From assembly GCF_027625995.1 (NCBI RefSeq), contig NZ_CP115396.1, positions 3,162,001 to 3,226,000 on the forward strand: 64,000 bases of DNA, in the 5' to 3' direction. Made by a program: the position numbers and the translations under genes. Shown here one piece after another: positions 42,072 to 59,326 of this stretch. Positions within the stretch are counted from its first letter, which is position 1; each line of letters opens with the position of its first letter. Source of the stretch: Hymenobacter yonginensis. Its GTDB lineage: Bacteria > Bacteroidota > Bacteroidia > Cytophagales > Hymenobacteraceae. The notes under the pieces were generated by a model that was given only the letters and a program-made list of their open reading frames with translations, made no database searches and was not told the origin of the DNA.

Positions 42072-42250
42072 TGGCACGGACTTCAGTCCGTAGCCCGCCG
42101 GCACCGGGCAAGAGGCGCAGGCAGGTTTGGGCTACGGACTGAAGTTCGTGCCAAGGCCAGCCATCCTGCGTTAGCCGGCTTGCAGTCGGCAGCCCTTAGG
42201 CGAAGGCAGGCGGCCCGGTGCCGGCGGGCTACGGACTGAAGTCCGTGCCA
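42072..42250. repeat. 38-bp perfect inverted repeat with third internal copy
   Basis: Arms 42072-42109 and 42213-42250 are perfect complements (TGGCACGGACTTCAGTCCG..). A third copy, 42131-42153 (GCTACGGACTGAAGTTCG..), sits between them in the right arm's orientation. All contain CGGACTTCAGTCCG. Fills the 265-bp gap to the next gene. Confidence 0.93.
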
Positions 42251-42256
42251 CAGGCA

Positions 42257-44242
42257 TCAGCCTTTCTTTTCCAGCACCAGCACCACTTTGTTGAAGTTGG
42301 CGGCGGCGTTTACCACGTCGCGGAAGGCTTCGAAGTCCTTTTTGGGCCAGCGGATCTGGCGGTAGGCTTCCGTGATGGTGACCGTGACTGTCTGGCCCTG
42401 CACGGCATACTTCGAGGTGAAGTAGTAGAGCGGGTCTTTGGCGTCGGGGCCGGCCTGCACGTTGGCGTTCAGGTCTTGGAGGTTGCGGATCTGGTATCCT
42501 GCGGGCAGCTCCAGCGTGATGGTGCGGTTGTAGCGGCGGTTGAAGTCGTTTTCCACGTCGTACTGCCGGGCTTCGGTCTGGTACAACTCCGACTGTGGCC
42601 CCAACAGCTCTCCGACTTTGAACAGGTAGCGCTGGCCTGCCTTGTTGAGCAGCGCCGATGATTCCACGCTGGCATCCACCAGAAACGGCTTGCTGAGCGG
42701 GCTTAGGCCGGCCTCACCGTTGGTGGCTTTCAGGCTCTGGAAGGTGGCGTCGGGCACGCTGCCTTTCACCAGCTCCTGCAGCACTTCGGTGCGCTTTTCT
42801 TCCGGAATCAGCGAGAAAAACGGCTGAATCACCTGGGCATGGTAGCCGCCCAGCACCTGGTGCACCTTCACGAAAGCCTTGTCGAGCTCGGGCGTGAACT
42901 TCACGCTGATGTCGAGGTCGTTGGGGCTTTGCTCGGCGGTCAAGGTCGGGATGTCGCGCACGGTGCCCACGGCCGACTCGGTGGAGCCCAGCTTCACGGT
43001 GCGCACGAACAGGCCCTTGTTGGCCGTCCAGCCGGGGGGCAGCATGCCGTAGCGGAAATCGGGCCGCGACGGGGCCAGCAGCTGCTTGGTTTCGGGGAAG
43101 TAGAAGGCGTAGTTGTCGAGGTAGTTCCAGGTGTCGAAGGTGTCGTCGAACACGACGTCGGAGCGGTCGGAAGTAATTACCAGCTCGTGCTCGATGCCCT
43201 GGCGGCGCAGCAGCGCGGCAAACAGGCGGGTAAGGCCCAGCTCGGAGGCGTTTTTGGTGGCCGCAATGCGCTGGATGTTGCTTTCGCCGTCTTCGGCCAG
43301 GTTGAAGCTGGTTTTGAGGTAGTTTTCCAGCGCCTTCACGCGGGTTTCGGTGTCGCCGCTGGCGGGCAGCTTCGCGTCTTTCAGCACCTTGTCCACGGCC
43401 TTGGTTTCGTCTTTGCTGAGCGAGTACACGGTGCCGTGCAGGTACTGGCTGGCATCGGCCCAGGTGAAGAGGCGCGTGCGGCCGCGCTGGGCGGTGTAGG
43501 CCAGCTTGTACTCCAGGCGCATGCGCTCGGCGTTGCCAGAGGCAAAGGATTCCTCGCGGGCAGCGGCCACGTCGGGCAGGCGCAGGCGGATGATGCGCTT
43601 GCCGGCCACCACGGTATCGGGGCGGGCGGCGGGGCCGTGGTACACGCGCGCCTCAAAGGTGAGGGCCTCCGGCGAAATCAGCTCAAACGACACGTCGTGG
43701 GCCGGCAGGCCGCTTTGCAGGTACTCGCGCCCGAAGAACTTGGCGGGCCGCTCGCGCAGAAACACGTACTCGATTTCCGAGCCTTTCTCCACGCCTTCCA
43801 CCGCAAAAATCTTGAAGCCCCGGCCGCCGTCCTGGTCCTTGAGCTCCTTCATGTTGCTTTCGCTCACCTCCACCACCTCGCCGCGCGGGCTGATGGTGCG
43901 GGCCTTCAGGTACACCAGCCGGCCGCCGTCCTGCGGGATGTAGATTTTGTTGAACTGCTCGATGCCGTCGGAGGTGTTGACGCGCAGAATCCGGTGCTCG
44001 GTGGAATAGATCTGCAGCTCCTTGTCGCCGGCGCTGAACTCGTGGGCCGTGAAGTCGCGCAGAATCAGGGCCGGCAGCTTGGCTTCGGCCTCCGTCACGG
44101 GCAGGCGCTTGGTGCGCTTGGCGTCCCAGGTGTAGGTGGCGTACTGCAGGGTTTTGGGCGCCTGCTGGGCGTGGAGCGGCGCGGCGGCCGTGAGCAGCAG
44201 CAAAGAAGCAGCAGTGGCGCGGGCAACGGAAAGAAGAGTCAT
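42257..44242 (-). CDS. DUF3857 protein with degenerate transglutaminase-like domain
   Basis: A 661-residue exported protein (signal ..LLLLTAAAPLHAQ). N-terminal DUF3857 (about 60-230) shows EHRILRVNTSDGIEQFNKIYIPQDGGRLVYLKARTISPRGEVVEV and GSEIEYVFLRERPAKFFGREYLQ. The region (about 305-390) aligns with the transglutaminase domain of its neighbour, but the three catalytic positions differ: NASELGLTRLFAALLRRQGI at Cys, LDNYAFYF at His, KQLLAPSRPDFRYG at Asp. So it is likely a non-catalytic partner. Last gene of the MORN-transglutaminase operon. Confidence 0.83.
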   Translation of the reverse strand: MTLLSVARATAASLLLLTAAAPLHAQQAPKTLQYATYTWDAKRTKRLPVTEAEAKLPALILRDFTAHEFSAGDKELQIYSTEHRILRVNTSDGIEQFNKIYIPQDGGRLVYLKARTISPRGEVVEVSESNMKELKDQDGGRGFKIFAVEGVEKGSEIEYVFLRERPAKFFGREYLQSGLPAHDVSFELISPEALTFEARVYHGPAARPDTVVAGKRIIRLRLPDVAAAREESFASGNAERMRLEYKLAYTAQRGRTRLFTWADASQYLHGTVYSLSKDETKAVDKVLKDAKLPASGDTETRVKALENYLKTSFNLAEDGESNIQRIAATKNASELGLTRLFAALLRRQGIEHELVITSDRSDVVFDDTFDTWNYLDNYAFYFPETKQLLAPSRPDFRYGMLPPGWTANKGLFVRTVKLGSTESAVGTVRDIPTLTAEQSPNDLDISVKFTPELDKAFVKVHQVLGGYHAQVIQPFFSLIPEEKRTEVLQELVKGSVPDATFQSLKATNGEAGLSPLSKPFLVDASVESSALLNKAGQRYLFKVGELLGPQSELYQTEARQYDVENDFNRRYNRTITLELPAGYQIRNLQDLNANVQAGPDAKDPLYYFTSKYAVQGQTVTVTITEAYRQIRWPKKDFEAFRDVVNAAANFNKVVLVLEKKG

Positions 44243-44320
44243 AGTAAGATAAAACAGGCGCCCAATGGCGCGGGATTTCCCGATGAATAAAACGGGTCTG
44301 GTTTGGTAATCGGCGCGGGC

Positions 44321-44398
44321 GTCCCAAGGCTGCAGCCCTGGGCTACGTGAGTCCCACTGCCCACCACTAACTAACCCAGGGCTTCAGCCCTGGGACAC
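44321..44398. repeat. CCCAGGGCTTCAGCCCTGGG-type palindrome pair
   Basis: Two copies, 44321-44348 and 44373-44398, in inverted orientation. Each is itself a palindrome with CTTCAG (or CTGCAG) at the centre. Confidence 0.85.
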
Positions 44399-44412
44399 CT
44401 GCGCAGCCGTGC

Positions 44413-46383
44413 TCAGACCTTCCGGCGCTTGAAAATGACGGTTTCGCGGTAGGCGGCGTTGAGCTTGTCTACGACGGCATTCCACTGGCCGAACTGCTGG
44501 GGCTGGAGCAGCAGGTAGTTGATGTAGACTTCCTTGTCTTGCACGATTTTGTTGCCCTGGCGCTCGTATTTCACCTTGAAGCCGAACACCGGGTCGCGCA
44601 TTTCGGCGACCGGCGGCAGGTACTCCACGTCGTAGCCGGCCGGAATTTCCAGCTCGGTGCGGGTGTGGTTTTGGCTGGCGTACTCGTTCACGCGGGGCAG
44701 GCGGCGCTTGGCAGCGTCAATCTTATCGTGGGCGTAGGGCTGCTCCAGGTTCAGGTTCACGTAGATTTCGTCGTCGAGCTTCTGCACGTAGTCCTGCAGG
44801 CGGTACTCGTAGTCGATGGTGAGCGGCTTTTCGCGGGTGTCGAGGTGGCTGACGCTGTATTTGTCGACAAAGAACTTGTTGTTGCCGCGCTCCAGCAGAG
44901 CCTTCACGTACTTGGTTTCCTCGGTCTGGTCGAGGCCGTCGAGGGCGTAGCTCTGCATCACTTTGGGGTAGCCCAGCAGCTGCAGGCTACCCTTGCCACG
45001 CAAACCGCCCTTCTCGTCCAGCACCAGCTGCGACACGTCCGAAACCGGGCTGCGCTCCTGGCTCATCACCGGCACGGGCACCACTTTGCAGTTCTTGCCA
45101 TCAATGGCCAGCAGCGCCTCCTTGCCCTGAATGAAGGCCGAGGGCATGCCGAAGGGCATGTACTTGTTGGTGGCATCGAGAAACACGTACTGGCCGGGGC
45201 TGGCCTCGTAGGTGGTTATCATGTGGTTGTCGACGCCGGGCGTGGCCAGCTCGGAGTAGCGGTAGGGCAGGTCGCGGGTGCCAATCCAGGTGAGGTAGGA
45301 CTTGATGCCGGCCATGCGCAGCATCTCGCGGGTGAGGTTGGCCATGTCCTTGCAGTCGCCATAGCGCTTGGTATACACCAGGCCGGCGTCGCGCGGGATG
45401 AAGCCGCCCATGCCGTTTTCGAAGGCCACGTAGCGGATGTTGTCCTGCACCCAATAGTACACGCGCTGCACCTTTTCCTGCTCGGTTTTGGCGCCCACGG
45501 CCAGCGAGTCAACCACGCGGCGCAATGCGGGACTTTCCTGCGGATCGAGCTTGCTCACGAAGCCGGAGTACAAGCTGTAGAGCTCGGGCACGCCGGCCAG
45601 CATGCGGCGGGCCTGCCCGTCGGCGGAGGGCACTTCCTCCACAAAGTACACGAGGTGCGGCAGGTAGTAGGCGGCCTCGGGGCCGTCGTCGTCGCGCGGG
45701 GGGCTGGGCAGGTCGTCGGCGCTCCAGCGGTACGTAACGGTGCTGCCTTTCTCCTGCTTGCTGAAGTTGATTTTCAGGCCCTCGACATGGAACATGCGGT
45801 GGCTGATTTTCACGTTTTTGGGGGCCGTGATGGTCAGCTCGGCGTGGCGCACGGGCACGTAGGAGCCGAAGTAGAACGGCAGCAGAAACCGCGGGTCGGG
45901 GTGGCGCACGGTGTAGTCGGTCACGGTGCGGGCGCCGGGCGTCACGGCCGGGAAGCTCCAGGTGGTGGAGCGGGTGTCGTCGTAGAAAATGCCCGACTGC
46001 ACCTCGAACTTCTCCTTGTAGTCGGTCACCTTCACCGTTCTGTAGCTGTTGCCGGCGGGCACCATGGTGCGGGCATCCAGCTTCTGCACGCGGCTGAAGT
46101 GGGAGTTGAACACCTTGTCGTTGGCGTACATGGCCGACTGCGCATCAAGGTGCAGCATGTCCTGGTGGTGGCGGGCCAGCACCACCACCGAGTCGCCCTG
46201 CACCGCGAAGGTGAGGTCAGTGCGGTAGTCGAGGTACACGGCCTTTTCGCCCGGAAACTTGGCCTGCATTTCGGCCACCAGCTGGGTAGGCTGCTGAGCG
46301 TGGGCCATGTGCGGCGCGGCCACCAGCGTGGCGGCGCCCAAAAGCAGCGCCAGGGCGCCACCAAACCGGTTATTTGCCTTCAT
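44413..46383 (-). CDS. DUF3857 and transglutaminase-domain protein
   Basis: A 656-residue exported protein starting MKANNRFGGALALLLGAATLV (signal to about 30, AHAQ). DUF3857 occupies about 50-230 (RHHQDMLHLDAQSAMYANDKVFNSHFSRVQKLDA). The transglutaminase core (about 320-450) is intact: KRYGDCKDMANLTREMLRMAG (catalytic Cys), VDNHMITTYEAS (His) and YVFLDATNKYMPFG (Asp). A C-terminal barrel-like or Ig-like region ends YRETVIFKRRKV. It overlaps the upstream MORN gene by 14 bp (ATGAAGGCAAATAA), implying translational coupling. Likely processes or crosslinks periplasmic substrates, or cleaves peptides. Confidence 0.9.
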   Translation of the reverse strand: MKANNRFGGALALLLGAATLVAAPHMAHAQQPTQLVAEMQAKFPGEKAVYLDYRTDLTFAVQGDSVVVLARHHQDMLHLDAQSAMYANDKVFNSHFSRVQKLDARTMVPAGNSYRTVKVTDYKEKFEVQSGIFYDDTRSTTWSFPAVTPGARTVTDYTVRHPDPRFLLPFYFGSYVPVRHAELTITAPKNVKISHRMFHVEGLKINFSKQEKGSTVTYRWSADDLPSPPRDDDGPEAAYYLPHLVYFVEEVPSADGQARRMLAGVPELYSLYSGFVSKLDPQESPALRRVVDSLAVGAKTEQEKVQRVYYWVQDNIRYVAFENGMGGFIPRDAGLVYTKRYGDCKDMANLTREMLRMAGIKSYLTWIGTRDLPYRYSELATPGVDNHMITTYEASPGQYVFLDATNKYMPFGMPSAFIQGKEALLAIDGKNCKVVPVPVMSQERSPVSDVSQLVLDEKGGLRGKGSLQLLGYPKVMQSYALDGLDQTEETKYVKALLERGNNKFFVDKYSVSHLDTREKPLTIDYEYRLQDYVQKLDDEIYVNLNLEQPYAHDKIDAAKRRLPRVNEYASQNHTRTELEIPAGYDVEYLPPVAEMRDPVFGFKVKYERQGNKIVQDKEVYINYLLLQPQQFGQWNAVVDKLNAAYRETVIFKRRKV

Positions 46384-49300
46384 ACACGTATTGGTTCCAG
46401 TACACTTCGGTTTTGGTGGGCTTGCCTTGGGCATCGTAATATACCGTCGGGCCGAGCTTTTCGCCACTGCGGTAGGATTCGGTGCGCTCCAGGGTGCCGT
46501 CGGGGCGGAAGTAGCGGCAGCGGCCGTGCAGCTCGCCGTGCAGGTAGGCTTCCTCTTCCATGGGCTTGCCGTCGGCATAAAATCCGGTGAGCGGGCCCGT
46601 CAGCAGGCCGTTCTGGAAGGTCATGCGGCGGAACACCTGGCCCGAGCTGTAGTAGGTGGTGCGGAGCCCGTCCATGATGCCGCCCTTCACGGTTTCGTCG
46701 GCGGCGGGCTTGCCGTTGGCGAAGGTGGTTTTGAGCGGACCGGCCAGCTTCTCGATGCGCTGCCAGGGCTCGGCGGGGTTGGTGCCGTTGCGGAACGCCG
46801 TGAGGTTGCCGTGGTCGTACATCCGCTCCTCCATCAGCTCACCGGCCGGGTTGTAGTAGCGCGACGGGCCTTCGGCGGTGCCGTAGAGGTAGGTCTGCAC
46901 GGTTTCGAGCTTGCCGTTGGGGAAGTAGAACTTGGTTTCGCCCACCCAGCTGCCGTAGCGGTAGTTCACCACCGAATGCAGCTGGCCCGAGGGGTAATAC
47001 TCCTTCCACTCGCCGTGCCGCTCGCCGTTGACGTAGCGGCCTTCGTAGAGCGGCTTGCCGTTGCTGTAATAGGATTTGTAGGGGCCGTGGCGCTGGTCGG
47101 CTTCGTAGCTGAACTCCACTTCCGGCTGGCCATTGGGATGGTACCAGCGGGCCGGACCGCGGTTTTCGTAGCAGGCCACCTGGGTGCGGTAGTGGGGCTG
47201 GCCGCCAGGGAAGGCGAAGGTGAATTCTTTGGTGTCGGGGCGAAGTGCCACGTGGCTGACGGTGCGGCCCAGCGTGTCGTAGGTGGTCAGCTGCAGCTTG
47301 CGCCCGAAGCCGTAGAGGCGCGACTCCGTAAGCTTGCCGTTGGGGGCGAAGCTGCGGGTGGGGCCATTTTTCTGGCCCTGGTGCATTTCGTACTCCTCGC
47401 TCACCTGACCGTCGGCGTAGAACTCGCGCCAGGGTCCCTGCTGCTGGCCGGCGCGGTAGTAGCCGGTCTGGTAGCGCTGGCCGTCGCGCAGGAAGCTTTC
47501 GAAGCTGCCCTCCAGCTGGCCGCCATCGTAGCTGGTTCGCTGCTTGAGCTGGCCGTTGGCATGGTAGTCGAGGGCCGGGCCCTGCAGCTGGCCGTGCTGG
47601 TAGTGCCGGATCTGCTGGAGCAGGCCATTGGCGTAGCTCCAGCGCCACTCGCCTTCCATGAAGCCGTCGATGTAAGCGCCGGTGCCGGTCACGCCGGTTT
47701 CGGCGCCGTAGATCTGCACGGCCACGCGGCCCTTTTTGGGGATGGGCGTATCCTGCAGGCGGCTGCCGGTGGCGGGGTCGAAGTAGCGCTGCCGCGTGAT
47801 ACGGCCGTGCTCGTACTCCACTTCGGCGTAGAGCTTGCCCTGGTAGGTGTAGTCGCGGAAGGTGCCGTGCAGCTCGCCGGCCTCGTCGAAGCTTTTCTCG
47901 TCGCTGGGGCGGCCGTCGGCGAAGTAGCTTTTCCACACGCCGGTCTGCTTGCCGCGGGTGTAGGTGCCGGTGTTCTGCAGCTGGCCGTTGGAGAAGTAGT
48001 CGGTGTAGGGGCCGTGCAGCTCGTCCTGGTCGTAGGTGCCGCGCTTTTCGGGCTGGTTGTCGGCGTAGTTCACCAGGAAAGGGCCCTGCTTCTTGCCGCC
48101 CACGTAGTTGTACTCATACTCCTTGGTGCCGTCGGGGTAGAAGTGGGTCTGGGCGCCCTCCTGCTTGTCGGCGCGCACTTCCACCTGCATCTTGGTTTTG
48201 CCGTCGGGGTACAGCTCCCGGTAAGGGCCGCTCAGGTCGCCGGCCCGGAAGGTGCGGGTGCCTTCCAGCTCGCCGCAATAGCTGAACACCTTCAGCACGC
48301 CCTCGGTCTTGCCGTTGACGTACGTGGCCTCGGTGGCGGGCTGGCCGTTGTCGTGGTAGTCGCGCACGAGGCCGTCCAGTTCGCCATTGCGGTAAGTGGC
48401 GGTGCGCTCCAGCACGCCGGTGGCGTAGTAGATGCGCCAAGGGCCGGTGCGCTTGAAGTTGGAGCCATAAAGGCCCTGCTGCCGGATGGTGCCGCTCTCG
48501 TCCGTGAACAGCCACGGCCCCGTGAAGCGGCGCTCCTCCCCTTCCACCGTGCCTTCGCCGATGCCGTTGAGCACGCCCTTATCATCAAACCAGCCTTTGG
48601 CCAAGCTGGGCTTGCCCTCCAGCACGTAGGGCTGCTGCTCCCGAATCTGCAGCAGCGCCGGCGAAATGGCCGTGTAGAATTTCTCGATGCGGCTCTTGTT
48701 GCCCTTGATCCACTGGGCGGCCTTCTGGTCGTCGGCGGAGGCCAGGGCGAGGTAGGTGGCGGTGGTCAGGTTGTCGTTGAATCGCAGCTGGGCCACCAAC
48801 GGGCCGTAGAGGCGCAGCCAGAAGTCGTCGGCAGAGGCAGCAGCCGGGGCCGGAAACTTCTCCACCAGCAGCTGCAGCTGCTTCACCAGCGCTGCGTCAA
48901 ACTTCACCTTCGACACGTAGTCTTTGCGCAGCGCAATCTTGGAATCGAGCAGGGCATCGAGCTCCGTGAAAGCGGCGTTGGGCGTGAACGGGGCAATCTT
49001 GTCGGCTTCTTCCACCACAGCCGTGCGGGTGGCCTGCTCTTCCAGGGCCACCAGCATGTTGTGGCTGCTGGCCGCGGGCTGCAACAGCAGGTACGTGAGC
49101 ATGCTGAGCATGGCATGGCTGGTGTGGCCCTGCCGGCTGGCCAGGTACGCCAGCTGGTAATGGCTGTTGGCGTGGGTGGGCTTCAGGGCCACACCGCGCT
49201 GCAGGCTAACAAAGCCCGGGGCAAACTGCTTGGTGGCTACCTGAAACACGCCCTGGTTGAACCACAGATTCTGGTTGTAGGGGAAGTGCTTGAGGCCGGT

Positions 49301-49720
49301 ATCGTAGGCGGCCTGCGCCTTTTCGGGGTGCTTGAGTTCCTCCTCGGCCCACGACAGCGCCACATAGGGCTGCGGGTCGTGGAAGTGCTGGGCCAGGGCG
49401 CGGGTGGCCGCGTCTACGGCTTCCTGGTATTTTTCCAGCGCCACGTAGCTGGTGGCCAGCTCGCTCTGGGCGGCGGCATACAGCGTGTCGCCGGGCGTGA
49501 TGCTGCTGTACAAAGCAATGGCCCCAGCGTAGTCGCCCTGGTCGTGCAGTTCAATGCCCTGGTTTACGGCCTGCCGCGAATCGACGAGGGGCGGCAGGGT
49601 GGCCGCGGCCGTAGTAGCAGAAGTGGTAGCAGCGGGGCGTACGGCCGCTTTCTGGCCCTGCGCGGCCAGGGGCGCGGCGGCCAGTAAGGCCAGCACCGCA
49701 CCATAAGAAGGTAGTCGCAT
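46370..49720 (-). CDS. Large secreted TPR and MORN-repeat protein
   Basis: An 1116-residue exported protein. Signal peptide (MRLPSYGAVLALLAAAPLAAQG), a TPR-like region (about 45-340, GIELHDQGDYAGAIALYSSI, YVALEKYQEAVDAATRAL) and then roughly 30 MORN/YwqK-like repeats (G.W..YY..G....T..Y.NG......) from about 350 to the end, e.g. GPWRIYYATGVLERTATYRNGELDGLVRDYHDNGQP. Such repeats form extended beta-rich scaffolds. The start at 49720 is preferred; an ATG ten codons upstream lengthens the signal. It is the first gene of the operon. Overlaps the next gene by 14 bp. Confidence 0.9.
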   Translation of the reverse strand: MRLPSYGAVLALLAAAPLAAQGQKAAVRPAATTSATTAAATLPPLVDSRQAVNQGIELHDQGDYAGAIALYSSITPGDTLYAAAQSELATSYVALEKYQEAVDAATRALAQHFHDPQPYVALSWAEEELKHPEKAQAAYDTGLKHFPYNQNLWFNQGVFQVATKQFAPGFVSLQRGVALKPTHANSHYQLAYLASRQGHTSHAMLSMLTYLLLQPAASSHNMLVALEEQATRTAVVEEADKIAPFTPNAAFTELDALLDSKIALRKDYVSKVKFDAALVKQLQLLVEKFPAPAAASADDFWLRLYGPLVAQLRFNDNLTTATYLALASADDQKAAQWIKGNKSRIEKFYTAISPALLQIREQQPYVLEGKPSLAKGWFDDKGVLNGIGEGTVEGEERRFTGPWLFTDESGTIRQQGLYGSNFKRTGPWRIYYATGVLERTATYRNGELDGLVRDYHDNGQPATEATYVNGKTEGVLKVFSYCGELEGTRTFRAGDLSGPYRELYPDGKTKMQVEVRADKQEGAQTHFYPDGTKEYEYNYVGGKKQGPFLVNYADNQPEKRGTYDQDELHGPYTDYFSNGQLQNTGTYTRGKQTGVWKSYFADGRPSDEKSFDEAGELHGTFRDYTYQGKLYAEVEYEHGRITRQRYFDPATGSRLQDTPIPKKGRVAVQIYGAETGVTGTGAYIDGFMEGEWRWSYANGLLQQIRHYQHGQLQGPALDYHANGQLKQRTSYDGGQLEGSFESFLRDGQRYQTGYYRAGQQQGPWREFYADGQVSEEYEMHQGQKNGPTRSFAPNGKLTESRLYGFGRKLQLTTYDTLGRTVSHVALRPDTKEFTFAFPGGQPHYRTQVACYENRGPARWYHPNGQPEVEFSYEADQRHGPYKSYYSNGKPLYEGRYVNGERHGEWKEYYPSGQLHSVVNYRYGSWVGETKFYFPNGKLETVQTYLYGTAEGPSRYYNPAGELMEERMYDHGNLTAFRNGTNPAEPWQRIEKLAGPLKTTFANGKPAADETVKGGIMDGLRTTYYSSGQVFRRMTFQNGLLTGPLTGFYADGKPMEEEAYLHGELHGRCRYFRPDGTLERTESYRSGEKLGPTVYYDAQGKPTKTEVYWNQYVYEGK

Positions 49721-49878
49721 CAAAAAGAATAGATAAAGAAGGCAATGCATAGCCGCGACCCGCGCGGAGCCGGCAGATATTCCTACAAGTATACGCACGG
49801 AAAAGCGACCCTGAAACAGGGGCCGTCCCGGTATCACAATAAATTTTTCAACCCTATATAGCGGCGTCAGAAGGCCCG

Positions 49879-50445
49879 TTAGCGCGGCGTGGGGCGGGGC
49901 TTGCGGGGCTTTTTCGGGGCCGGGTACACGGTCAGCTCGCGGTAGCCGAACGTGGGGTCGGGCTCGCGCCGGAACTCCACGTCTTCGAGCACGCCCAGCA
50001 CCAGCTCGGCGGTGGTGTAAACAAGGTTGCCATCGAGCAGATGCCCGCCCAGCGTGCGCCCCGTGGAGTCAGACACGGCCAGGTGCAGGTGGCTACCGCT
50101 GGTGGAAAGCGTGCCCACCAGACTCACGATTTCGAAGTGGCCACGGTACACGCTGGGGTTTTCCTGGTTGGCCAGCCGCAGGGTAGCCTGCGTAAGGCTG
50201 CCCACGCACGTCACGATGGCGCCGGCCTTTATCTGCTGCTGCTCCACGAAGGCGTTGAGCTGCTGGCGCAGATCCTGGCCAGGCGTCAGGCGCAGCGCAT
50301 AAGTGCGCATGGCAGAAGGCAACGCGGCAGGAGCCGGGGCAGCGGGCTTAATAGCAGGCATGGCAGCAGGAGTTTGGGCCAGCAGCGGCGCGGCCGGCCC
50401 GGCTAGCAGCAAGGAAAAGAACAAACCGCAGAAACGAGTACGCAT
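49879..50445 (-). CDS. Secreted PPC/DUF296-domain protein
   Basis: A 188-residue exported protein. Signal peptide (about 1-24, ..LLAGPAAPLLAQ), then a PPC/DUF296 (plant and prokaryote conserved) domain from about residue 45: MRTYALRLTPGQDLRQQLNAFVEQQQIKAGAIVTCVGSLTQATLRLANQ, FEIVSLVGTLSTSGSHLHLAVSDSTGRTLGGHLLDGNLVYTTAELVLG. The domain is usually cytoplasmic and trimeric; an exported version is less usual. The C-terminus is basic (PKKPRKPRPTPR). Binding partner unknown. Confidence 0.85.
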   Translation of the reverse strand: MRTRFCGLFFSLLLAGPAAPLLAQTPAAMPAIKPAAPAPAALPSAMRTYALRLTPGQDLRQQLNAFVEQQQIKAGAIVTCVGSLTQATLRLANQENPSVYRGHFEIVSLVGTLSTSGSHLHLAVSDSTGRTLGGHLLDGNLVYTTAELVLGVLEDVEFRREPDPTFGYRELTVYPAPKKPRKPRPTPR

Positions 50446-50460
50446 ACTACAAAGAACGGC

Positions 50461-51877: not shown

Positions 51878-52656
51878 GGCTGGGGCTGGTTGGTGGCGGC
51901 CGGCGTGCCCTGCGCCTGATACTCCTGCATCTGCTCCCGGGTGCGGGTTTGCTGGTTGAGGATGTCGAGGCGGATCTGCAGGTTGCGATTCATGGCATCG
52001 AGCACCACAGTGGGCTCGGGGTTGCGGTAGAGCTCCTGCTTGAGCTGCCGGTAGGTCGAGTCGAGGCCGGCCAGCTCGCGCTGCCAGTCGGCGGCGGCGC
52101 CGGCGGGCATGGCGGCTTCCAGCTTCTGCAGCTGGGCCTGGCGCTCTTCAATCTGCACGGCAAAGTAGCTTTCCATGCGGCGCACTTCCTGCGTGAGGCG
52201 CTGGGCCGGCGAGGCCGAGGCCGCCTCTGCTATCGGCTCGGCTTCAAAGCCAAAGGACAGGCCCGCTGGGCTTTCAATACCCGCAGCAGTGGCGGGCGGG
52301 GCCACAGTGGCCGTGGTGGCGGTCCAGGCACCGGAGTGGCTGTTGGTGTTGCTCCAGATGGCGCCGAGGCCGGCCAGCAGCAACGCGGCGGTGGCGGCAG
52401 CCATGGCCGGGCGCGGCAACCAGGTGGCGCGGCGGGCGGCGGGGGCAGGAGTGGCAGGGGCTTCGGCCGCCGGGTGCAGGCGCACCACCCGCAGCGGAGC
52501 AGGCTCCTCGTCGGGCGTGGCGGTAGCAGGGGCAGCGGCGGAATCCGCCAGCTGCGCCTCAATGGCGTCCCACAAGTCCGGGCGCGGCTCAAACACGTCG
52601 AAGTCGGCGCGGTGCCGCTCAACGAAATTTTCCAGTCCGGTTTCTTTGTCGTTCAT
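51874..52656 (-). CDS. Anti-sigma-factor-like membrane protein
   Basis: A 260-residue protein with a single TM helix (AMAAATAALLLAGLGAIW, about 84-102). The cytoplasmic N-terminus (ENFVERHRADFDVFEPRPDLWDAIEAQL) resembles the anti-sigma DF..E.p....W..I... segment in Bacteroidota operons. The periplasmic C-terminus is helical (TQEVRRMESYFAVQIEERQAQLQKLEAAM). No zinc-binding HxxxCxxC motif. It sits between the ECF sigma gene and the adhesin-like gene, with ATGA overlap to the latter. Confidence 0.75.
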   Translation of the reverse strand: MNDKETGLENFVERHRADFDVFEPRPDLWDAIEAQLADSAAAPATATPDEEPAPLRVVRLHPAAEAPATPAPAARRATWLPRPAMAAATAALLLAGLGAIWSNTNSHSGAWTATTATVAPPATAAGIESPAGLSFGFEAEPIAEAASASPAQRLTQEVRRMESYFAVQIEERQAQLQKLEAAMPAGAAADWQRELAGLDSTYRQLKQELYRNPEPTVVLDAMNRNLQIRLDILNQQTRTREQMQEYQAQGTPAATNQPQP

Positions 52657-52742
52657 GTTCGGGGTGGTACTAGGGGCACTATGGGGTTCTGCAGCTGCCC
52701 AAGGGCATTGTCAGAGGGGAAAAGCAAAGCAGGTAGGTGGTA

Positions 52743-53315
52743 TCAGGCCGTGAGGCCGCGCTGGCTGGCCAGTTCCAGCAGTTTCTTGCGGGCCCGGCTG
52801 TACTGCGACTTCGACGTAGACTCCGTGATGCCTAGAATGCCGGCTATTTCGGCGTGGTCATAGCCTTCGAGCAAATACAGAGTCAGCACCACGCGGTAGC
52901 CGTCGGGCAGCTCCTGCACGCAGCGGCGCACCACGTCGGCGCGCCAGTGGGTTTCGTCGCTGTCGGCGGCGTAGTCGGACGGCTCAGGGCCGGCGGCGGC
53001 ATCGTGCTGCTCGCCCAGCGGCACCAGCTGCAGGCGCCGGTTGCGCAGGCAGTTGATGCTTTTGTTGATGACGATGCGCTTCAGCCAAGAGCCAAACGAC
53101 GAGTCGCCTTTGTAGCTGTGCAGCTCCCGAAACGCACTCAGGAAGGCTTCCTGCAGCACATCTTCGGCCTCTGCGTAGTTGCCGGTGATGCGTAGCGAGG
53201 CGTTGAACATGGCCTTGGAGTAGCGCTTGTATATCTCGGCCTGGGCCCGCCGGTCGCCCAGGCGGCACCGCTCTACCAGCGGGGCGTTGATATCGGTATA
53301 AGCAAAAGCTTCCAT
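52743..53315 (-). CDS. ECF-type RNA polymerase sigma factor
   Basis: A 190-residue ECF sigma-70. Region 2 (about 15-80) has VERCRLGDRRAQAEIYKRYSKAMFNASLRITGNYAEAEDVLQEAFLSAFRELHSYKGDSSFGSWLKRIVINKSINCLRN. Region 4 (about 125-185) has VVRRCVQELPDGYRVVLTLYLLEGYDHAEIAGILGITESTSKSQYSRARKKLLEL. The start ATG 53315 fits the family; the longer upstream frame is rejected. It drives the operon and is held in check by the membrane protein downstream. Confidence 0.95.
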   Translation of the reverse strand: MEAFAYTDINAPLVERCRLGDRRAQAEIYKRYSKAMFNASLRITGNYAEAEDVLQEAFLSAFRELHSYKGDSSFGSWLKRIVINKSINCLRNRRLQLVPLGEQHDAAAGPEPSDYAADSDETHWRADVVRRCVQELPDGYRVVLTLYLLEGYDHAEIAGILGITESTSKSQYSRARKKLLELASQRGLTA

Positions 53316-53463
53316 AAGCGAAAAGCGGAAGGTGAAACAGGCGAAAGTCAGCGAATATCCGACTTTCCAAGCGAAGCTGCTACATGCTGGAGGGCAAGCA
53401 GGTGAAAGACAGCCGCGTGGTGCCAGGGTTGCACCTGTCCGCCAACATTGCCGCCCGGCGCGG

Positions 53464-53471
53464 TATGTTTG
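53464..53471 (+). promoter_or_regulatory. -7 promoter element (TATGTTTG) of the lipoprotein gene
   Basis: Matches TAnnTTTG, 45 bp before ATG 53517. Confidence 0.55.
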
Positions 53472-53516
53472 CAACTGCCTTATCTGCTATTCTTTCCGTT
53501 AAGCTATTCTGCCCAC

Positions 53517-54032
53517 ATGAAGTTTCTTCCATTCCTGTTTTTTGCCGCTACCGCCCTCGTCGCCTGTAAAAAGGACACCGACGCCCCCGCCATCGACTTC
53601 GGCCCCAACGGTGGCATCACTATGCGCGACAAGTTCGATAACCCCCAAGGCACTATCGACTCCACCGACTGGACACTGGACGGCATCTGGAATCAGCAGG
53701 AGCAGGATCTGTTCAAGGACTTGGGGCTGGATCTGAACGTCGCTGCCAGCGGCACGATGTCCCTGCTCAGCGCCTACCCCAATCCGGTAGCCTCCCAAGT
53801 AGTGTTCGAATACGAAACGCCGCTAGCCGTGACGTGCAGCTTTGTGATAGTGGATGACAAGTATCGGGTGATCAAACCGTTGAAAACATCCATTGTGCAA
53901 ACCAATACCGGCTTTTACTTCGATATGAGCCAGGACTTTCCACCAGGCAAGCGCTACCGGCTTTATTACGTGTTCCAGAACGGCTCAACGCTCTACTACA
54001 AAGGCCACGGCGACATCAAAGTCGGGATGTAG
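53517..54032 (+). CDS. Hypothetical lipoprotein (171 aa)
   Basis: A 171-residue lipoprotein with signal MKFLPFLFFAATALVAC and an acidic, Ser/Pro-rich start (KKDTDAPAIDFGPNGG). The remainder has FDNPQGTIDSTDWTLDG, LSAYPNPVASQVVFEY and KRYRLYYVFQNGSTLYYKGHGD; no known domain recognised. The stretch SAYPNPVASQVVFEYETP is like the Por secretion C-terminal tail motif (YPNPA...), so it could hold an immunoglobulin-like or T9SS-like fold, but the protein lacks the usual end. Its TAG stop is part of a REP arm. Confidence 0.65.
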   Translation: MKFLPFLFFAATALVACKKDTDAPAIDFGPNGGITMRDKFDNPQGTIDSTDWTLDGIWNQQEQDLFKDLGLDLNVAASGTMSLLSAYPNPVASQVVFEYETPLAVTCSFVIVDDKYRVIKPLKTSIVQTNTGFYFDMSQDFPPGKRYRLYYVFQNGSTLYYKGHGDIKVGM

Positions 54033-54155
54033 CATAGGCTTCAGCCTGTGCCGACTTGCACTTCGAGTAAAAGCAAAAGGCCGCCATCTGGTTGATGGCG
54101 GCCTTTTGCTTTGTGTAACTACGCAGTCTGGCACAGGCTGAAGCCTATGCTACAT
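54028..54155. repeat. 26-bp perfect inverted repeat (TAGCATAGGCTTCAGCC family) around a terminator
   Basis: Arms 54028-54053 (ATGTAGCATAGGCTTCAGCC..) and 54130-54155 are perfect complements. A strong terminator hairpin (54066-54112) sits between them. The left arm contains the TAG stop of the lipoprotein gene; the right arm ends 5 bp from the ALDH gene's stop. Confidence 0.95.
54066..54112. terminator. Bidirectional terminator
   Basis: Stem AGCAAAAGGCCGCCATC / GATGGCGGCCTTTTGCT with A and T tracts on both sides, between convergent genes. Confidence 0.92.
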
Positions 54156-54159
54156 GCAG

Positions 54160-55758
54160 CTAGAAATCAAACTTGATACCCTGGGCCAGCGGGAGCTGGG
54201 TGCTGTAGTTGATAGTGTTGGTCTGGCGGCGCATGTACACGCGCCACGCGTCGGAGCCCGACTCGCGGCCGCCGCCGGTTTCCTTCTCGCCACCGAATGC
54301 GCCGCCGATTTCGGCACCGCTCGTGCCGATGTTCACGTTGGCAATGCCGCAGTCGGAGCCGGTGTGGGCCAGGAAGGCTTCGGCCTCGCGCATGTTCAGC
54401 GTGAAGATGCTCGACGAGAGGCCCTGGCGCACGCCGTTCTGGATAGCAATGGCGTTTTCCACGTCGCCGCTATACTTAATCAGGTACAGAATGGGCGCGA
54501 AGGTTTCTTCCTGCACGGTGTGGTAGGCGTTGTCGGCCTCCACCAGCGCGGGCGTCACGTAGGTGCCGGTTTCATAGCCGGCGCCGCTCAGCACCTCACC
54601 GCCGATGAGCAGCTTGCCGCCTTCCTTCTGCACGGCTTCGAGGGCTTTGGTGAAGGCTTGCACGGCGTCCGTGTCGATGAGCGGACCCACCAGTTTGCCG
54701 TCCTGCAGCGGGTGGCCGATGGGCAGGTTGGGGTAGATTTTCAGCAAGCGGGCCTTCACATCCTCAAAAATAGACTCGTGGATGATGACGCGGCGGGTAG
54801 TGGTGCAGCGCTGCCCAGCCGTACCCACGGCCCCGAACACGATGGCGCGGATGGCAATTTCAAGGTCGGCGTGCTGGGTGAGGATGATGGCGTTGTTGCC
54901 GCCCAGCTCCAGCAGCGCGCGGCCCAGGCGGGCGCCCACCACTTCGCCTACCTTCTTGCCCATGCGGGTGCTGCCCGTGGCCGACACCAGTGGCACGCGG
55001 CCGTCGGCGGCCATGGCCGCCCCAATCTCGGCGTCGCCGATAACCAGGTTGAAGATGCCTTCGGGCAGCTCGTTTTCGCGCAGCACGTCCTGGATGATGT
55101 GCTGCACGGCCACGGCCACCAGCGGCGTCTTCTCCGAGGGCTTCCAGATGCAGACGTCGCCACAGACGGCGGCCAGCATGGCGTTCCAGCTCCACACGGC
55201 CACCGGGAAGTTGAAGGCCGAGATGATGCCCACCACGCCCAGCGGGTGGTATTGCTCGTACATGCGGTGCGCCGGGCGCTCCGAGTGCATCGTGAAGCCG
55301 TGCAGTTGGCGCGAGAGGCCCACCGCAAAGTCGCAGATGTCAATCATTTCCTGCACTTCGCCAAGGCCTTCCTGCAGGATTTTGCCCATTTCGTAGCTCA
55401 CCAGCTTGCCCAGCGGCTCCTTGAACTCGCGCAGCTTGTTGCCAATCTGGCGCACAATTTCGCCGCGCTTGGGGGCCGGCACGGTGCGCCAGGTCAGGAA
55501 GGCTTCCTGGGCCTTCTGCACCACCTGCTCGTAGTCGGCGGCGGTGGCAAACGTAACGCTGCCAATGAGCTTGCCGTCGGTGGGCGAGTGGATGGCGCGG
55601 GTCTGGGCATTGCCCTGGCCGCCCCACACAAGGCCGGTGCTCCAGGCGGCGTTGGTGGCTTCTACGCCCAACTCGCGCAGCACCTGCCGGATGCCGTGGT
55701 GGTCGTGGTCCTGTACGTCGGTGCCGGTGGCGGTAGCTTCTTCGAGGGCTTGTTTCAT
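54160..55758 (-). CDS. ALDH7-type aldehyde dehydrogenase (amino-adipic semialdehyde type)
   Basis: A 532-residue aldehyde dehydrogenase. Motifs include TNAAWSTGLVWGGQGNAQTRAIHSPTDGKLIG at the start, AWSWNAMLAAVCGDVCIWKPSEKTPLVA (cofactor region), GSTRMGKKVGEVVG, LLELGGNNAIIL (catalytic Glu) and GTAGQRCTTTRR with nucleophile Cys318. The GGNNAI and QRCTTTRR forms are typical of the ALDH7/AmaB group, which oxidise alpha-aminoadipic semialdehyde/piperideine-6-carboxylate in lysine breakdown. An N-terminal extension (EATATGTDVQDHDHHG) is unusual. No lysine pathway neighbours are seen, so the substrate remains open. Confidence 0.88.
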   Translation of the reverse strand: MKQALEEATATGTDVQDHDHHGIRQVLRELGVEATNAAWSTGLVWGGQGNAQTRAIHSPTDGKLIGSVTFATAADYEQVVQKAQEAFLTWRTVPAPKRGEIVRQIGNKLREFKEPLGKLVSYEMGKILQEGLGEVQEMIDICDFAVGLSRQLHGFTMHSERPAHRMYEQYHPLGVVGIISAFNFPVAVWSWNAMLAAVCGDVCIWKPSEKTPLVAVAVQHIIQDVLRENELPEGIFNLVIGDAEIGAAMAADGRVPLVSATGSTRMGKKVGEVVGARLGRALLELGGNNAIILTQHADLEIAIRAIVFGAVGTAGQRCTTTRRVIIHESIFEDVKARLLKIYPNLPIGHPLQDGKLVGPLIDTDAVQAFTKALEAVQKEGGKLLIGGEVLSGAGYETGTYVTPALVEADNAYHTVQEETFAPILYLIKYSGDVENAIAIQNGVRQGLSSSIFTLNMREAEAFLAHTGSDCGIANVNIGTSGAEIGGAFGGEKETGGGRESGSDAWRVYMRRQTNTINYSTQLPLAQGIKFDF

Positions 55759-55795
55759 GAGAAAGGTTGGGTGGGAAATGCGGATTGGTATTCAG

Positions 55796-55803
55796 CAAAT
55801 CTA
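55796..55803 (-). promoter_or_regulatory. -7 promoter element (TAGATTTG, minus strand) of the ALDH gene
   Basis: Reads CAAATCTA on the plus strand, 38 bp upstream of the ALDH start. Confidence 0.6.
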
Positions 55804-55861
55804 ATGAATTGGCGCGGGGGCTACTATTTCCCGCGTCCCGCGTTACCGGGTTTCAACGCAA

Positions 55862-55895
55862 AAAAGCTCCTGCTACGAGTGTAGCAGGAGCTTTT
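55862..55895. terminator. Terminator of the HtrA gene
   Basis: Stem AAAAGCTCCTGCTAC / GTAGCAGGAGCTTTT with T tracts on both strands, in the gap between HtrA (upstream) and ALDH (downstream). Confidence 0.85.
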
Positions 55896-55914
55896 CAGAT
55901 ATTTCCGGCCGCTG

Positions 55915-55948
55915 GAATCCTCAGATTCCTCGCTTGGCTCAGAATGAA
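55915..55948. repeat. Degenerate copy of the CATTCCGAG-type repeat
   Basis: AGATTCCTCGCTTGGCTCAG followed by AATGA resembles one arm of the 20.6-kb element (AGATTCCTCGCTCCGCTCGG then AATGA) with several changes. It lies immediately at the HtrA stop; no partner arm seen. Confidence 0.6.
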
Positions 55949-55950
55949 GG

Positions 55951-57456
55951 CTACTCGGCCTGCCCGATGGGGTAGTAGGCTTTGCGGCCGTCGGGGTACA
56001 CGCCTTCTACCAGCGCGCCCTGGCTTTCCTTGGCGGCTTCCAGGTACTGGGCCACGTCCTGGGGCTTGCTCACCTTGTTCTTGTCGATGCGGGTGATGAT
56101 GAAGCCGTCGGCAATGCCGGTTTCGCGGAAGTTGGAGCCCTGGATGCCGCTGATTTTCGCGCCGCCTTCCAGGCCCAGCTTGTTCATTTCCTGCTTGCTC
56201 ACCGGGGCCAGCGTAGCGCCTTCATACTTGATAACCTTGGCCAGCTCTTCCCGAATAATGTCGGTGGTGCCGGTGGAGTTGCGCAGCGTAGCCGAGGCAG
56301 TGCGCGTGTCGGAGCCGCGGAGGTAGGTCACCTTGATTTTGTCGCCGGGGCGGAAGCGGGCTACCTGCTCCTGCAGCTGCGACGAGGTGTTCACCTTGGC
56401 GCCGTTGATTTCCGTGATGATGTCACCTTCCTTCAGGCCAGCATCAGCGGCTGAGCTGTTTTTGCTCAAACCCATCACGTACACGCCGCTCAGCGTGTTG
56501 AGCTTCTTCTCAGAAGCCAGCTGCGCGTCTACCTCCCGGATCTGCACGCCCAGCAGGGCGCGCTGCACCACTTTATATTTAAGCAGGTCATCAATCACCT
56601 TGCTCACGATGGAGCTGGGCACGGCGAAAGAGTACCCCACAAACGAGCCCGTCTGCGAGGCAATGGCCGAGTTGATGCCGATCAGGTCGCCGTTGAGGTT
56701 CACGAGCGCGCCGCCCGAGTTGCCGGGGTTTACCACAGCATCGGTTTGCAGGAAGCTCTCGATGCCCATACCCTGCTGGTCGCGCAGGATGTTGATGTTG
56801 CGGCCCTTGGCCGAGATGATGCCGGCCGTGACAGTGGAGTTCAGGTTGAAGGGGTTGCCCACGGCCAGTACCCACTCCCCTACCTTCACCTGGTCGGAGT
56901 TGCCGTAGCGAATAAAGGGCAGGTTGTCGGCTTTCACCTTGAGCAGCGCCAGGTCGGTGGTGGGGTCAGTGCCCACCAGCTCGGCCTCGAACTTGCGCTT
57001 GTCGTCCATCACCACCTCAATCTTGTCGGCCTTATCAATCACGTGGTTGTTGGTGACGATGTAGCCGTTGGCGGCGATGATAACGCCCGAGCCGGAGCCC
57101 TGCTGCGGCCCGCGCTGGGGCTGCTGGTACTGCTCGAACTCGTCGCCGAAGAACTGGCGTAGGAAGGGGTCCATGCGGGCACTGCCGCCGCCCTGGCCCG
57201 CTTTGGGCGCGTACTCCGTCATTACGTGCACCACGGCCGGCGTCACGGACGCCGCGGCCGCCGTGAAGTTGAGGCCTTCGGGCACCACGTAGTTGCTGCT
57301 GCGCAGCTCACTCGTGTACCGAACATTGGGGTCAGCCGCAATAGCCTGGGGCGCGTTGGGGCGCTCTGGCTCCAGCAGCTTGTACCCACCCACTGCCACG
57401 CCCCCGCCAAGTACAGCGGAACCGAGCAGACCGAGCATCATTTGTTTTGCTTGCAT
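55951..57456 (-). CDS. HtrA/DegP-type serine endopeptidase
   Basis: A 501-residue periplasmic protease/chaperone. N-terminal anchor (LLGSAVLGGGVAVGGYKLL, possible uncleaved). The trypsin-like domain has TNNHVID with His138, TTDLALLKV (Asp, near 168) and PGNSGGAL with Ser247, an intact triad. Two PDZ domains follow: about 300-390 (LLGVQIREVDAQLAS, GVYVMGLSKNSSAADAGLKEGDIITEING) and about 400-501 (EMNKLGLEGGAKISGIQGS.., GFIITRIDKNKVSKPQDVAQYLE). Degrades misfolded envelope proteins under stress. Confidence 0.95.
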   Translation of the reverse strand: MQAKQMMLGLLGSAVLGGGVAVGGYKLLEPERPNAPQAIAADPNVRYTSELRSSNYVVPEGLNFTAAAASVTPAVVHVMTEYAPKAGQGGGSARMDPFLRQFFGDEFEQYQQPQRGPQQGSGSGVIIAANGYIVTNNHVIDKADKIEVVMDDKRKFEAELVGTDPTTDLALLKVKADNLPFIRYGNSDQVKVGEWVLAVGNPFNLNSTVTAGIISAKGRNINILRDQQGMGIESFLQTDAVVNPGNSGGALVNLNGDLIGINSAIASQTGSFVGYSFAVPSSIVSKVIDDLLKYKVVQRALLGVQIREVDAQLASEKKLNTLSGVYVMGLSKNSSAADAGLKEGDIITEINGAKVNTSSQLQEQVARFRPGDKIKVTYLRGSDTRTASATLRNSTGTTDIIREELAKVIKYEGATLAPVSKQEMNKLGLEGGAKISGIQGSNFRETGIADGFIITRIDKNKVSKPQDVAQYLEAAKESQGALVEGVYPDGRKAYYPIGQAE

Positions 57457-57665
57457 GGGTAAGAACAGTGAAAGAAGGGAAAAAGAGGAGAACCGAATTT
57501 AGGAAAGTGTGCGTGAACCAACAATGAAGCGGGCTTATGCAACGAAAGATGCGCGCCCGGCAGTATGAGGTTGCATCCAGCAGCCGAGCCGGGGCTTTTA
57601 GTCGACAAAACTGCCCACGGTGTCTGCCACTTTCCGCTGTCTACTCTAGCAACACGCGGGCCAAC

Positions 57666-57695
57666 AAAAAAGGCACCCGTCTGGATGCCTTTTTT
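57666..57695. terminator. Terminator after the Hsp20 gene
   Basis: Stem AAAAAAGGCA / TGCCTTTTTT, with an inner CC/GG pair, about 16 bp past the Hsp20 stop (minus strand); works either way. Confidence 0.8.
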
Positions 57696-57711
57696 GCAGA
57701 ACTCGCAGTGC

Positions 57712-58155
57712 CTAGCGCACTTCGATGTGATGTTTCGTCACTTTTTTGCTGTCAAAAGGCAGCTGCACGCGCAGAATGCCATCGGTCAGCTCGGCGTTGA
57801 TGGCCGTTACGTCGACGGTGTCGGGCAGGCGGAAGCTACGGGTGAAGCTGCCGTAGCCGGTTTCGGTGCGGTGGAACTTCGGGGCGTTTTCGGCGGCCTC
57901 CGGCGCCTTCCGCTCGCCGCTGATGACGAGCTGGCCTTCCTGGAAATCGATATTGACGGCGTCTTTCGCTACGCCCGGCAGCGCCAGGTGCAGCTCGAAG
58001 CCGGCTTCGCTTTCCAGCACGTCGGCGGCCGGCGCGAAGGATTTGGAGGGTTGGTTCACGGCCGGCAGCGTGTCGCGCAGCATGTCGCTGAGCACGGCAT
58101 TGAAGGCACGCGAAGGACGGAGAGCGGGGCGGTTGTTATACAGCAGAGTTGCCAT
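57712..58155 (-). CDS. Hsp20/alpha-crystallin small heat shock protein
   Basis: A 147-residue sHsp. The ACD (about 50-130) has PAADVLESEAGFELHLALPGVAKDAVNIDFQEGQLVISGERK and YGSFTRSFRLPDTVDVTAINAELTDGILRVQLPF (A-x-x-x-n-G-v-L motif, as AELTDGILRV). The C-terminal end (KKVTKHHIEVR) has a single I-E-V, the usual small ending of Bacteroidota members. Binds unfolding proteins to prevent aggregation. It lies near HtrA but is a separate unit. Start ATG 58155 begins MATLLYNN. Confidence 0.95.
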   Translation of the reverse strand: MATLLYNNRPALRPSRAFNAVLSDMLRDTLPAVNQPSKSFAPAADVLESEAGFELHLALPGVAKDAVNIDFQEGQLVISGERKAPEAAENAPKFHRTETGYGSFTRSFRLPDTVDVTAINAELTDGILRVQLPFDSKKVTKHHIEVR

Positions 58156-58374
58156 GGTATGAGATGATGTAGTTGAGTCAGAAGTTGAATCTGTACCGTC
58201 AGGCACACCCTTACTCTATAAAATCCATACCAGTCGACTTTTAATGACAAAAAGGCATTAAAAGTATATTCGGCGAATTTCAGCCCTATTCATATTTCAA
58301 CAAATACCGGCCATACAACCCATCAAGCCTCCTTTCACCCCAATTCAACTCACGACAAAAAGTCACAAATCAAT

Positions 58375-59184
58375 TTAGTGCTGCGTTGGAAGCTGCCGGC
58401 GCTCGAACACGGAGCCGCCCTTGAAGAGGGTGAAGCGCAGATCCAGGCCCACGACCGGCGTGATGAGGTTGGTGCGGCCGCCGCCAGTGACGTTGCCGTT
58501 GGCATCGGTTTGCACCAATGCGTTGATGTAGGTGGTCTGCGACGCCACCCAGGGCGTGAAATCGAAATGCGGCGACACCCGCACGCCGATTTCGCCGCGC
58601 AGGTTGCCGAAGTCGATTACCCGCTCTTTCTCCTCCAGCTCGTCGCGCTGCAGGCGCAGATAGGCAGCAGCTTCGTAGGAGATGCGCGGGCGCAGGGCCA
58701 GGTTAGTGCCCAGCGGAAACACCCGGTCCAGGTCGAGGCGCAGGCGGGTGATGGCGCGGCTTTCGGCTCCCTCCTCGGTTGGCACGAAAACCTCTACGCC
58801 CAGCCGCTGCCGGAAATTGAAGCCGCCCAGCGTGTTCCAGTGCCGCACGAACAGTTCGGGCGTCAGATTGGTGTAGAGCCCGTTGCGGCTGCCGCCATCC
58901 CGCTCAACCTTATAAAAGTCGCTACGCAGCGTAGCGCCGCCGCTCCACTGCTCGTTCCAGAACCGCTCGTAGCCCAGGTTCAGGCCCACCTGTTCCAGGG
59001 TAGTGCCCTGAAAGGTGCCGGTGCTGATGGGCCCGCGCACGCCTAGCAGTATGTAGTCGTCGCCGGTCAGGGCCAGCTCGGCCTGTACCTCAGGCAGCAG
59101 CAGCGTGCTGCCCACGCTCCGGCGCTGGGCCGTGGCGGCGGTGGCAAGCAGACAGGTGGTGAGCAGTAGAACTTGGTGACGCAT
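58375..59184 (-). CDS. Outer-membrane beta-barrel protein, unknown function
   Basis: A 269-residue exported protein. Signal peptide (MRHQVLLLTTCLLATAATAQ). A barrel-like body: LALTGDDYILLGVRGPIS, LNLGYERFWNEQWSGGATLRSDFYKVER, LRPRISYEAAAYLRLQRDEL, VGLDLRFTLFKGGSVF. Likely about 12 strands. I do not recognise the family. Start ATG 59184; the longer upstream frame is rejected. A REP pair lies upstream in the gap to the M20 gene. Confidence 0.7.
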   Translation of the reverse strand: MRHQVLLLTTCLLATAATAQRRSVGSTLLLPEVQAELALTGDDYILLGVRGPISTGTFQGTTLEQVGLNLGYERFWNEQWSGGATLRSDFYKVERDGGSRNGLYTNLTPELFVRHWNTLGGFNFRQRLGVEVFVPTEEGAESRAITRLRLDLDRVFPLGTNLALRPRISYEAAAYLRLQRDELEEKERVIDFGNLRGEIGVRVSPHFDFTPWVASQTTYINALVQTDANGNVTGGGRTNLITPVVGLDLRFTLFKGGSVFERRQLPTQH

Positions 59185-59195
59185 AAAAAAACAGC

Positions 59196-59326
59196 TGTAG
59201 CACAGGCTGCAGCCTGTGCCTATTGACAAATAGTAGTGTCCCGCGGTGCGAAGTGCCTTTGTGCGGGAGCGGTAAAGCCAGTAGCGCAAGCTTTGGGTTC
59301 TGGCACAGGCTGAAGCCTATGCTACA
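59196..59326. repeat. TAGCACAGGCTGCAGCC-type inverted pair
   Basis: Copies at 59196-59220 (TGTAGCACAGGCTGCAGCC..) and 59302-59326 (inverted ..GGCTGAAGCCTATGCTACA) match with a few differences. The right copy includes the last codons and the TAG stop of the M20 gene. Confidence 0.88.

Follow-up and report, generated by a model that had tools for sequence, protein, structure and literature searches.

Tagged hairpin repeats with a near-constant loop in Hymenobacter and a probable Y1 transposase partner for one of their families

GTAG repetitive extragenic palindromes (REPs) have been described as paired hairpins that carry a tag, and in the text of that survey, as far as searched, Bacteroidetes appear only for CGTC repeats (Di Nocera et al., 2013; PMC3733652). 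TnpAY1 subclass 1.2 is given no REPs in Table 1 of Quentin et al. (2018; PMC6006769). For other enzymes, Corneloup et al. (2021; PMC8266576) show biochemically that group 3 TnpA-REP proteins require certain loop bases, the stem mattering less, and state that the IS608 and ISDra2 transposases contact a T in the loop of their hairpins. We analysed a stretch of 64,000 nucleotides from Hymenobacter yonginensis (contig NZ_CP115396.1, positions 3,162,001 to 3,226,000), here called the window, which contains palindromes centred on CTTCAG. In a search of open-licence papers we recognised nothing on REPs of Hymenobacter or on REPs with subclass 1.2.

Judged from their sequences, the palindromes are most likely REPs of a known kind, tagged by GTAG or GTGG, in families that we call A, C and D. 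The enzyme of family C is very probably Tnp-C, a Y1 transposase found in relatives of the window's genome, and families A and D would either serve Tnp-C as additional substrates or be left over from sister enzymes.

A tag, a loop and covarying stems

The words CTTCAG and CTGAAG occur 48 times in the window. With the C-G closure included, six of them have at least four perfect pairs, and every one of these lies inside an interval listed by a first-pass annotation of the same DNA; the copies it named exist where it placed them. A seventh copy of the CTTCAG core, at 42,139, has a single stem mismatch. The total is 11 copies (Table 1), including a CTTTAG dimer at 22,790-22,931 that was missing from the earlier list, as was the tag described below. 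The loops are TTCA, TTTA and TGCA, the last in the two copies (at 44,323 and 59,197) for which it had been reported. The window has more hairpins that combine a 4-nt TTCA loop with a perfect stem of at least 6 than expected by chance, with three observed and a mean of 0.15 in shuffled windows (n = 20; TTCA, TTTA and TGCA pooled).

GTAG or GTGG stands at a constant spacing 5' of the hairpin in nine of the 11 copies, and TTGG and CTAA take its place in the remaining two. The CGTC foot of CGTC REPs is absent. We searched 864 kb, made up of the window plus 40 stretches taken from two relatives, for GT[AG]G-N6-CTT[CT]AG. There were 23 sites, of which 20 pair at five or more of the six arm positions with G-T allowed, compared with 4% of 580 untagged CTTYAG cores; thus, tag and core alone predict pairing. 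Among 19 distinct sequences 92.5% of cells are paired, two-sided changes occur at five of seven pairs and G-U pairs are tolerated. None of 500 shuffles reached these covariation values, and slid controls were paired at 21-38%. The hairpin is a covarying structure joined to an unpaired tag, which matches the description of GTAG REPs. The earlier proposal that the loop is fixed while the stem varies with its pairing kept, and would show covariation, is borne out as far as a near-constant loop and covarying stems are concerned. It does not hold strictly, since the loop has three forms and the closing pair C-TTCA-G becomes T-TTCA-A in copies near Tnp-C of relatives. In the flanks of Tnp-C in relatives an inner stem pair also changes from G-C to A-T (GGACTTCAGTCC).

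The stems form discrete families, three of which share the TTCA/TTTA loop. Their consensus sequences are GTAGCAYAGG-CTTYAG-CCTGTGC for family A, GTAGCCCAGGG-CTTYAG-CCCTGGG for family C and GTGGCACGGA-CTTCAG-TCCGTAGCC for family D. Copies were counted in 120 genomes of the genus, that is, in relatives of the window's genome. G001, the nearest genome, has 31 exact copies of the family A pattern GTAGCAYAGGCTKYAGCCTGTGC, G013 has 46 and G059 has 2; the other 117 have none. The family D pattern GGNACGGACTTCAGTCCGTNGCC, with at most one mismatch, was found in nine genomes and the family C pattern TAGCCCRGGGCTTYAGCCCYGGG in 21; reversed-pattern controls for all three families gave 0 in every genome. 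The tag of family D is GTGG in 11 of 12 copies read and GTAG in one. Many copies form dimers. Among the matches listed, two copies lying within 250 nt of each other are arranged head-to-head in family A (15/15) and family D (13/14) and tail-to-tail in family C (32/32, counted on part of the matches, without the genomes or contigs G054, G055, G060 and some single copies). Like GTAG REPs (Di Nocera et al., 2013) and REP dimers (REPINs), these repeats have a GTAG/GTGG foot, a short paired stem with a short loop, dispersed copies and dimers (the last two in relatives), and families that differ by stem or loop. They differ from them in that family C surrounds a Y1 gene of subclass 1.2 and no class 2 REP-associated Y1 transposase (RAYT). 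The idea that the palindromes are chance formations or ordinary terminators could appeal to the fact that perfect-stem TTCA/TTTA hairpins are few in two relatives (400 kb of each), but it conflicts with the result for tag and core, and copy number together with the empty reversed-pattern controls already refutes it; we give it practically no weight.

REP sites differ between close relatives. Across most of its length the window aligns collinearly with G001 and G013. The family D trio at 42.07-42.25 kb is missing from both, and a different inverted repeat stands in its place. All three genomes have the family C dimer at 44.3 kb between the same outer flanks, but its orientation is inverted in the window, which would reflect either an inversion between the hairpins (44323-44394) or an exchange. 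The dimer at 54 kb is retained in G001 and is reduced to a single decayed copy in G013; no site cleanly lacking it was recovered, the G023 stretch containing a terminator and ATGTAG with the hairpin not seen. Both relatives retain the pair at 59 kb, with an interval of 244 nt versus 151 nt in the window. The dimer at 22.8 kb is absent from G001, and G013 has one copy.

A Y1 gene among the family C hairpins

In agreement with the first-pass annotation, no RAYT or other Y1 gene was seen in the window, where Pfam was run on 10 open reading frames and no family search covered the whole length. A PF01797 search of the genus found Y1 genes in 83 of the 120 genomes. Among them is Tnp-C, a 142-aa HUH/Y1 protein (PF01797, E 4.4e-24) present at 83% identity or more in 10 of the 120 genomes, with one close copy in each (10/10). 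Relatives at this identity in named genomes all come from Hymenobacter. Hairpins with a CCCAGGG stem and a TTCA, TTTA or TGCA loop adjoin the Tnp-C gene in all 10 genomes. We then asked for an identical stem of at least 6 on either side of a gene within 500 nt. This was found for Tnp-C in 9/9 cases, for class 2 RAYTs of the genus in 7/9 and for random positions in 0/400. One Tnp-C copy on a short contig (L102/L129) was left out of this test and of the neighbourhood comparison; of 24 Y1 loci for which the search returned no motif, seven were given hand-set coordinates in the test and the rest were left out. Tnp-C has the same neighbours in the nine genomes compared, where about 1.3 kb to either side aligns at 82-94% identity, so this is one locus. 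Family C copies occur in 9 of the 10 genomes with Tnp-C versus 12 of the 110 others (p 2.5e-7, uncorrected for kinship). A Y1 gene flanked by the same REPs, the arrangement that defines a REPtron, was found among A, C and D for family C only (9/9 tested). As a separate observation, G052 has 13 exact copies of family C in a genome listed without a PF01797 match; either its REPs have apparently survived the loss of any Y1 transposase, or the assembly has a gap.

Tnp-C resembles class 2 TnpA-REP/RAYT proteins in its HUH/Y1 fold and as a single-copy gene flanked by its own hairpins. A classical RAYT was nevertheless rejected as the family C partner, given Y---Q--HH in place of Y---NP and a score of 30 bits for the NCBIfam REP-associated transposase, against a cut-off of 80. 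The IS200/IS605 transposase model gives 58.6 bits against a cut-off of 55. The motifs of Tnp-C are DHVH (DHIH in one protein), WQ and YIRNQEKHH, and HUH, W-Q and Y---Q--HH are invariant across 20/20 aligned proteins. By these motifs, DH[IV]H among them, the protein fits TnpAY1 subclass 1.2; likeness extends to a length of about 145 aa, low copy number and occurrence in Bacteroidetes. The difference is that subclass 1.2 is listed without REPs in the table cited above (Quentin et al., 2018), and the Tnp-C genes here have REP hairpins in 10/10 genomes. A tree of 53 chosen rows recovers Tnp-C as a single clade (100/99) that lies apart from class 2 proteins; long branches are flagged. A structure model (pLDDT 88) has the ISDra2 and IS608 transposases as its best matches by E-value; E. 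coli TnpA-REP ranks 29 with a similar TM-score, and IS200 and RAYT proteins are not told apart by the fold search. IS608 and ISDra2 are the closest solved structures by sequence as well as by fold. The gene differs from IS200/IS605 elements, which move as a unit in several near-identical copies, in that it stays at one locus (9/9) and the hairpins are dispersed without it. The earlier suggestion to look for a RAYT or Y1 transposase in the genome thus led to an enzyme among family C in 10 of 120 relatives; this enzyme is no classical RAYT and is missing from G001.

What may read the hairpins

That the substrate is single-stranded DNA is suggested by a foot confined to one strand, by the dimers, by the number of copies and by the Y1 gene amid family C. 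We propose that the REPs would be non-autonomous DNA repeats folding as single-stranded hairpins, which an HUH/Y1 transposase would cleave and copy or move. The enzyme would read the 5' tag and the TTYA loop, and the stem would mainly need to pair. For family C this enzyme is very probably Tnp-C, which may also use, or have sister enzymes that once used, families A and D.

The same hairpins might instead work mainly in RNA, as structures at 3' ends that shield transcripts or terminate them, are kept at gene ends by selection and have a loop read by an RNA-binding protein. REPs do lie at gene ends, and in one case, at 54,029, an open frame ends with the TAG that is part of the tag; one copy contains a stop codon, one pair encloses a terminator-like repeat, and the tolerated G-U pairs would suit RNA. 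However, an unpaired tag predicts pairing, family C surrounds a Y1 transposase and sites differ among close relatives, and we consider an RNA function improbable as the main explanation. The first-pass annotation had thought of a stable UUCA-type RNA tetraloop; the tag and the Y1 gene among family C speak against this as the prime reading, and dimers and copy numbers likewise point to DNA.

Several results weigh against the proposal of REPs moved by Tnp-C or sister enzymes. Tnp-C was not found in G001, the nearest genome examined. Twelve genomes have family C copies without Tnp-C, which requires loss. In all eight of these that were searched the neighbours of the locus persist (79-96% identity), and the interval of 151-617 nt between them contains neither a Tnp-C gene nor a CCCAGGG hairpin. 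Perfect-stem hairpins with 4-nt loops, counted over 400 kb from G013 and as much from G001, do not have TTCA/TTTA as a leading loop (3+1 and 3+0 for TTCA+TTTA, with 1.6 and 1.4 in shuffles for TTCA+TTTA+TGCA); this census requires a perfect stem, and a G-T pair is usual in copies of family A. No family A or D hairpin stands beside the Y1 genes inspected (2/2 in G001, 3/4 in G013, 2/2 in G059), and a rescan of nine Y1 loci with wobble pairs allowed found no family A hairpin in the flanks. Finally, the opposite dimer geometry of A and D, head-to-head rather than tail-to-tail, may separate them from C as different systems.

The last two points favour an alternative in which A and D each have, or had, a transposase of their own that is lost or unseen, Tnp-C serves C only, and the common loop is due to descent or convergence. 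Other REP families of the genus that adjoin their own class 2 RAYT also favour it. Against this, the loop and the spacing of the tag are identical across the families, and family D co-occurs with Tnp-C (4/9, p 0.003) and with C (6/9, p 0.0009), both uncorrected for kinship. We regard separate transposases as a serious alternative that falls a little short of probable. One candidate partner for family A, the 178-aa Y1 gene L001 of G001, was rejected on two grounds: its flanks have GCCCC-NNN-GGGGC and no TTYA/TGCA hairpin, and relatives of L001 occur in genomes without family A.

Precedents in group 3, IS608 and ISDra2 enzymes and hairpins beside other Y1 genes make loop reading by the Tnp-C branch plausible but do not prove it. 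At seven IS200-type loci of the genus (L033-L039) hairpins centred on CTTTAG or CTTCAG, with other stems, adjoin the gene, and an eighth (L040) has no such hairpin beside it. A Tnp-C relative at 45-46% identity is flanked by CCCGGCG-CTTTAG-CGCCGGG. For more distant Tnp-C homologues 8/20 have matching hairpins on both sides (stem of at least 6), several of them with cut flanks, and some loops are not TTYA. The corresponding value for the L001 type is 1/16; at a stem of 5 it is 12/16, with 46/400 at random positions. With 8/20 and 1/16, these results do not prove that the pattern holds throughout subclass 1.2.

Two further hairpin types were seen beside Y1 genes. L001/L108, L042, L045, L048 and others are a subclass 1.2-like type of the genus with 5-bp hairpins on its flanks (for example GCCCC-NNN-GGGGC), often paired about 52 nt apart. 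Y1 loci L134, L136, L140, L143 and L144, from metagenome-assembled genomes of Chlamydiales and Planctomycetes, lie near CCCAGGG...CCCTGGG hairpins with other loops, so that the outer stem of family C recurs across phyla.

Positions, further families and implications

The copies in the window are listed in Table 1. The REP at 42230..42251 is part of a 41-nt perfect inverted repeat whose partner arm is 42,069-42,109, and the two family C copies form a tail-to-tail pair.

Table 1. REP copies and an associated inverted repeat in the window (window coordinates)
Position	Strand	Feature	Loop	Tag position	Remark
22790..22811	+	REP, A-like stem	TTTA	GTAG	left half of dimer
22910..22931	-	REP, A-like stem	TTTA	GTAG	right half of dimer
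42071..42092	+	REP family D	TTCA	GTGG	
42133..42154	-	REP family D		TTGG	one stem mismatch
42230..42251	-	REP family D	TTCA	GTGG	
44323..44346	-	REP family C	TGCA	GTAG	one stem mismatch
44371..44394	+	REP family C	TTCA	CTAA	
54029..54050	+	REP family A	TTCA	GTAG	
54070..54112	+	19-bp inverted repeat			terminator-like, between both REPs of head-to-head pair
54132..54153	-	REP family A	TTCA	GTAG	directly downstream of aldehyde dehydrogenase gene
59197..59218	+	REP family A	TGCA	GTAG	20-nt perfect palindrome
59304..59325	-	REP family A	TTCA	GTAG	contains stop codon of M20 peptidase open reading frame

GTAG-tagged hairpins with other loops lie at 27.6 and 40.1 kb of the window, and a further family at 30.5 kb. 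Palindromes with unrelated centres, which at the same frequency would by the earlier account have spoken against a loop-defined set, do therefore exist in the window, but as separate GTAG families. The second GTAG-REP family (GTAGCGCGAACT-TTGT-AGTTCGCG) is found at 27570-27593, 27646-27670, 27718-27747, 40125-40149 and 40183-40206, and in relatives its hairpin adjoins class 2 RAYT genes (L075, L078, L080, L081). The third (GTAGAGACRCAA-TATG-TTGYGTCTC type) is at 30449-30468 and 30541-30566; in G001 another class 2 RAYT (L002) is flanked by a similar one.

REPs themselves are known, and the new part is the partnership of a subclass 1.2 Y1 enzyme with a REP family. The spread of REPs has been attributed to class 2 RAYTs, and a class 1 (IS200-like) single-copy enzyme amid a REP family departs from that. 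Tentatively, and with less confidence than we place in the alternative of separate transposases, REP systems may have had a second origin in IS200/IS605-like transposases. Subclass 1.2 would then be a separate domesticated lineage of REP transposases in several phyla, reading the TTYA loop and the foot tag and tolerating any paired stem, such that one enzyme could support A, C and D. The link between Tnp-C and family C gives the orphan subclass 1.2 a probable function, together with a substrate open to testing. It also provides a natural covariation set for asking what a single-strand transposase reads: the foot, the loop or the stem.

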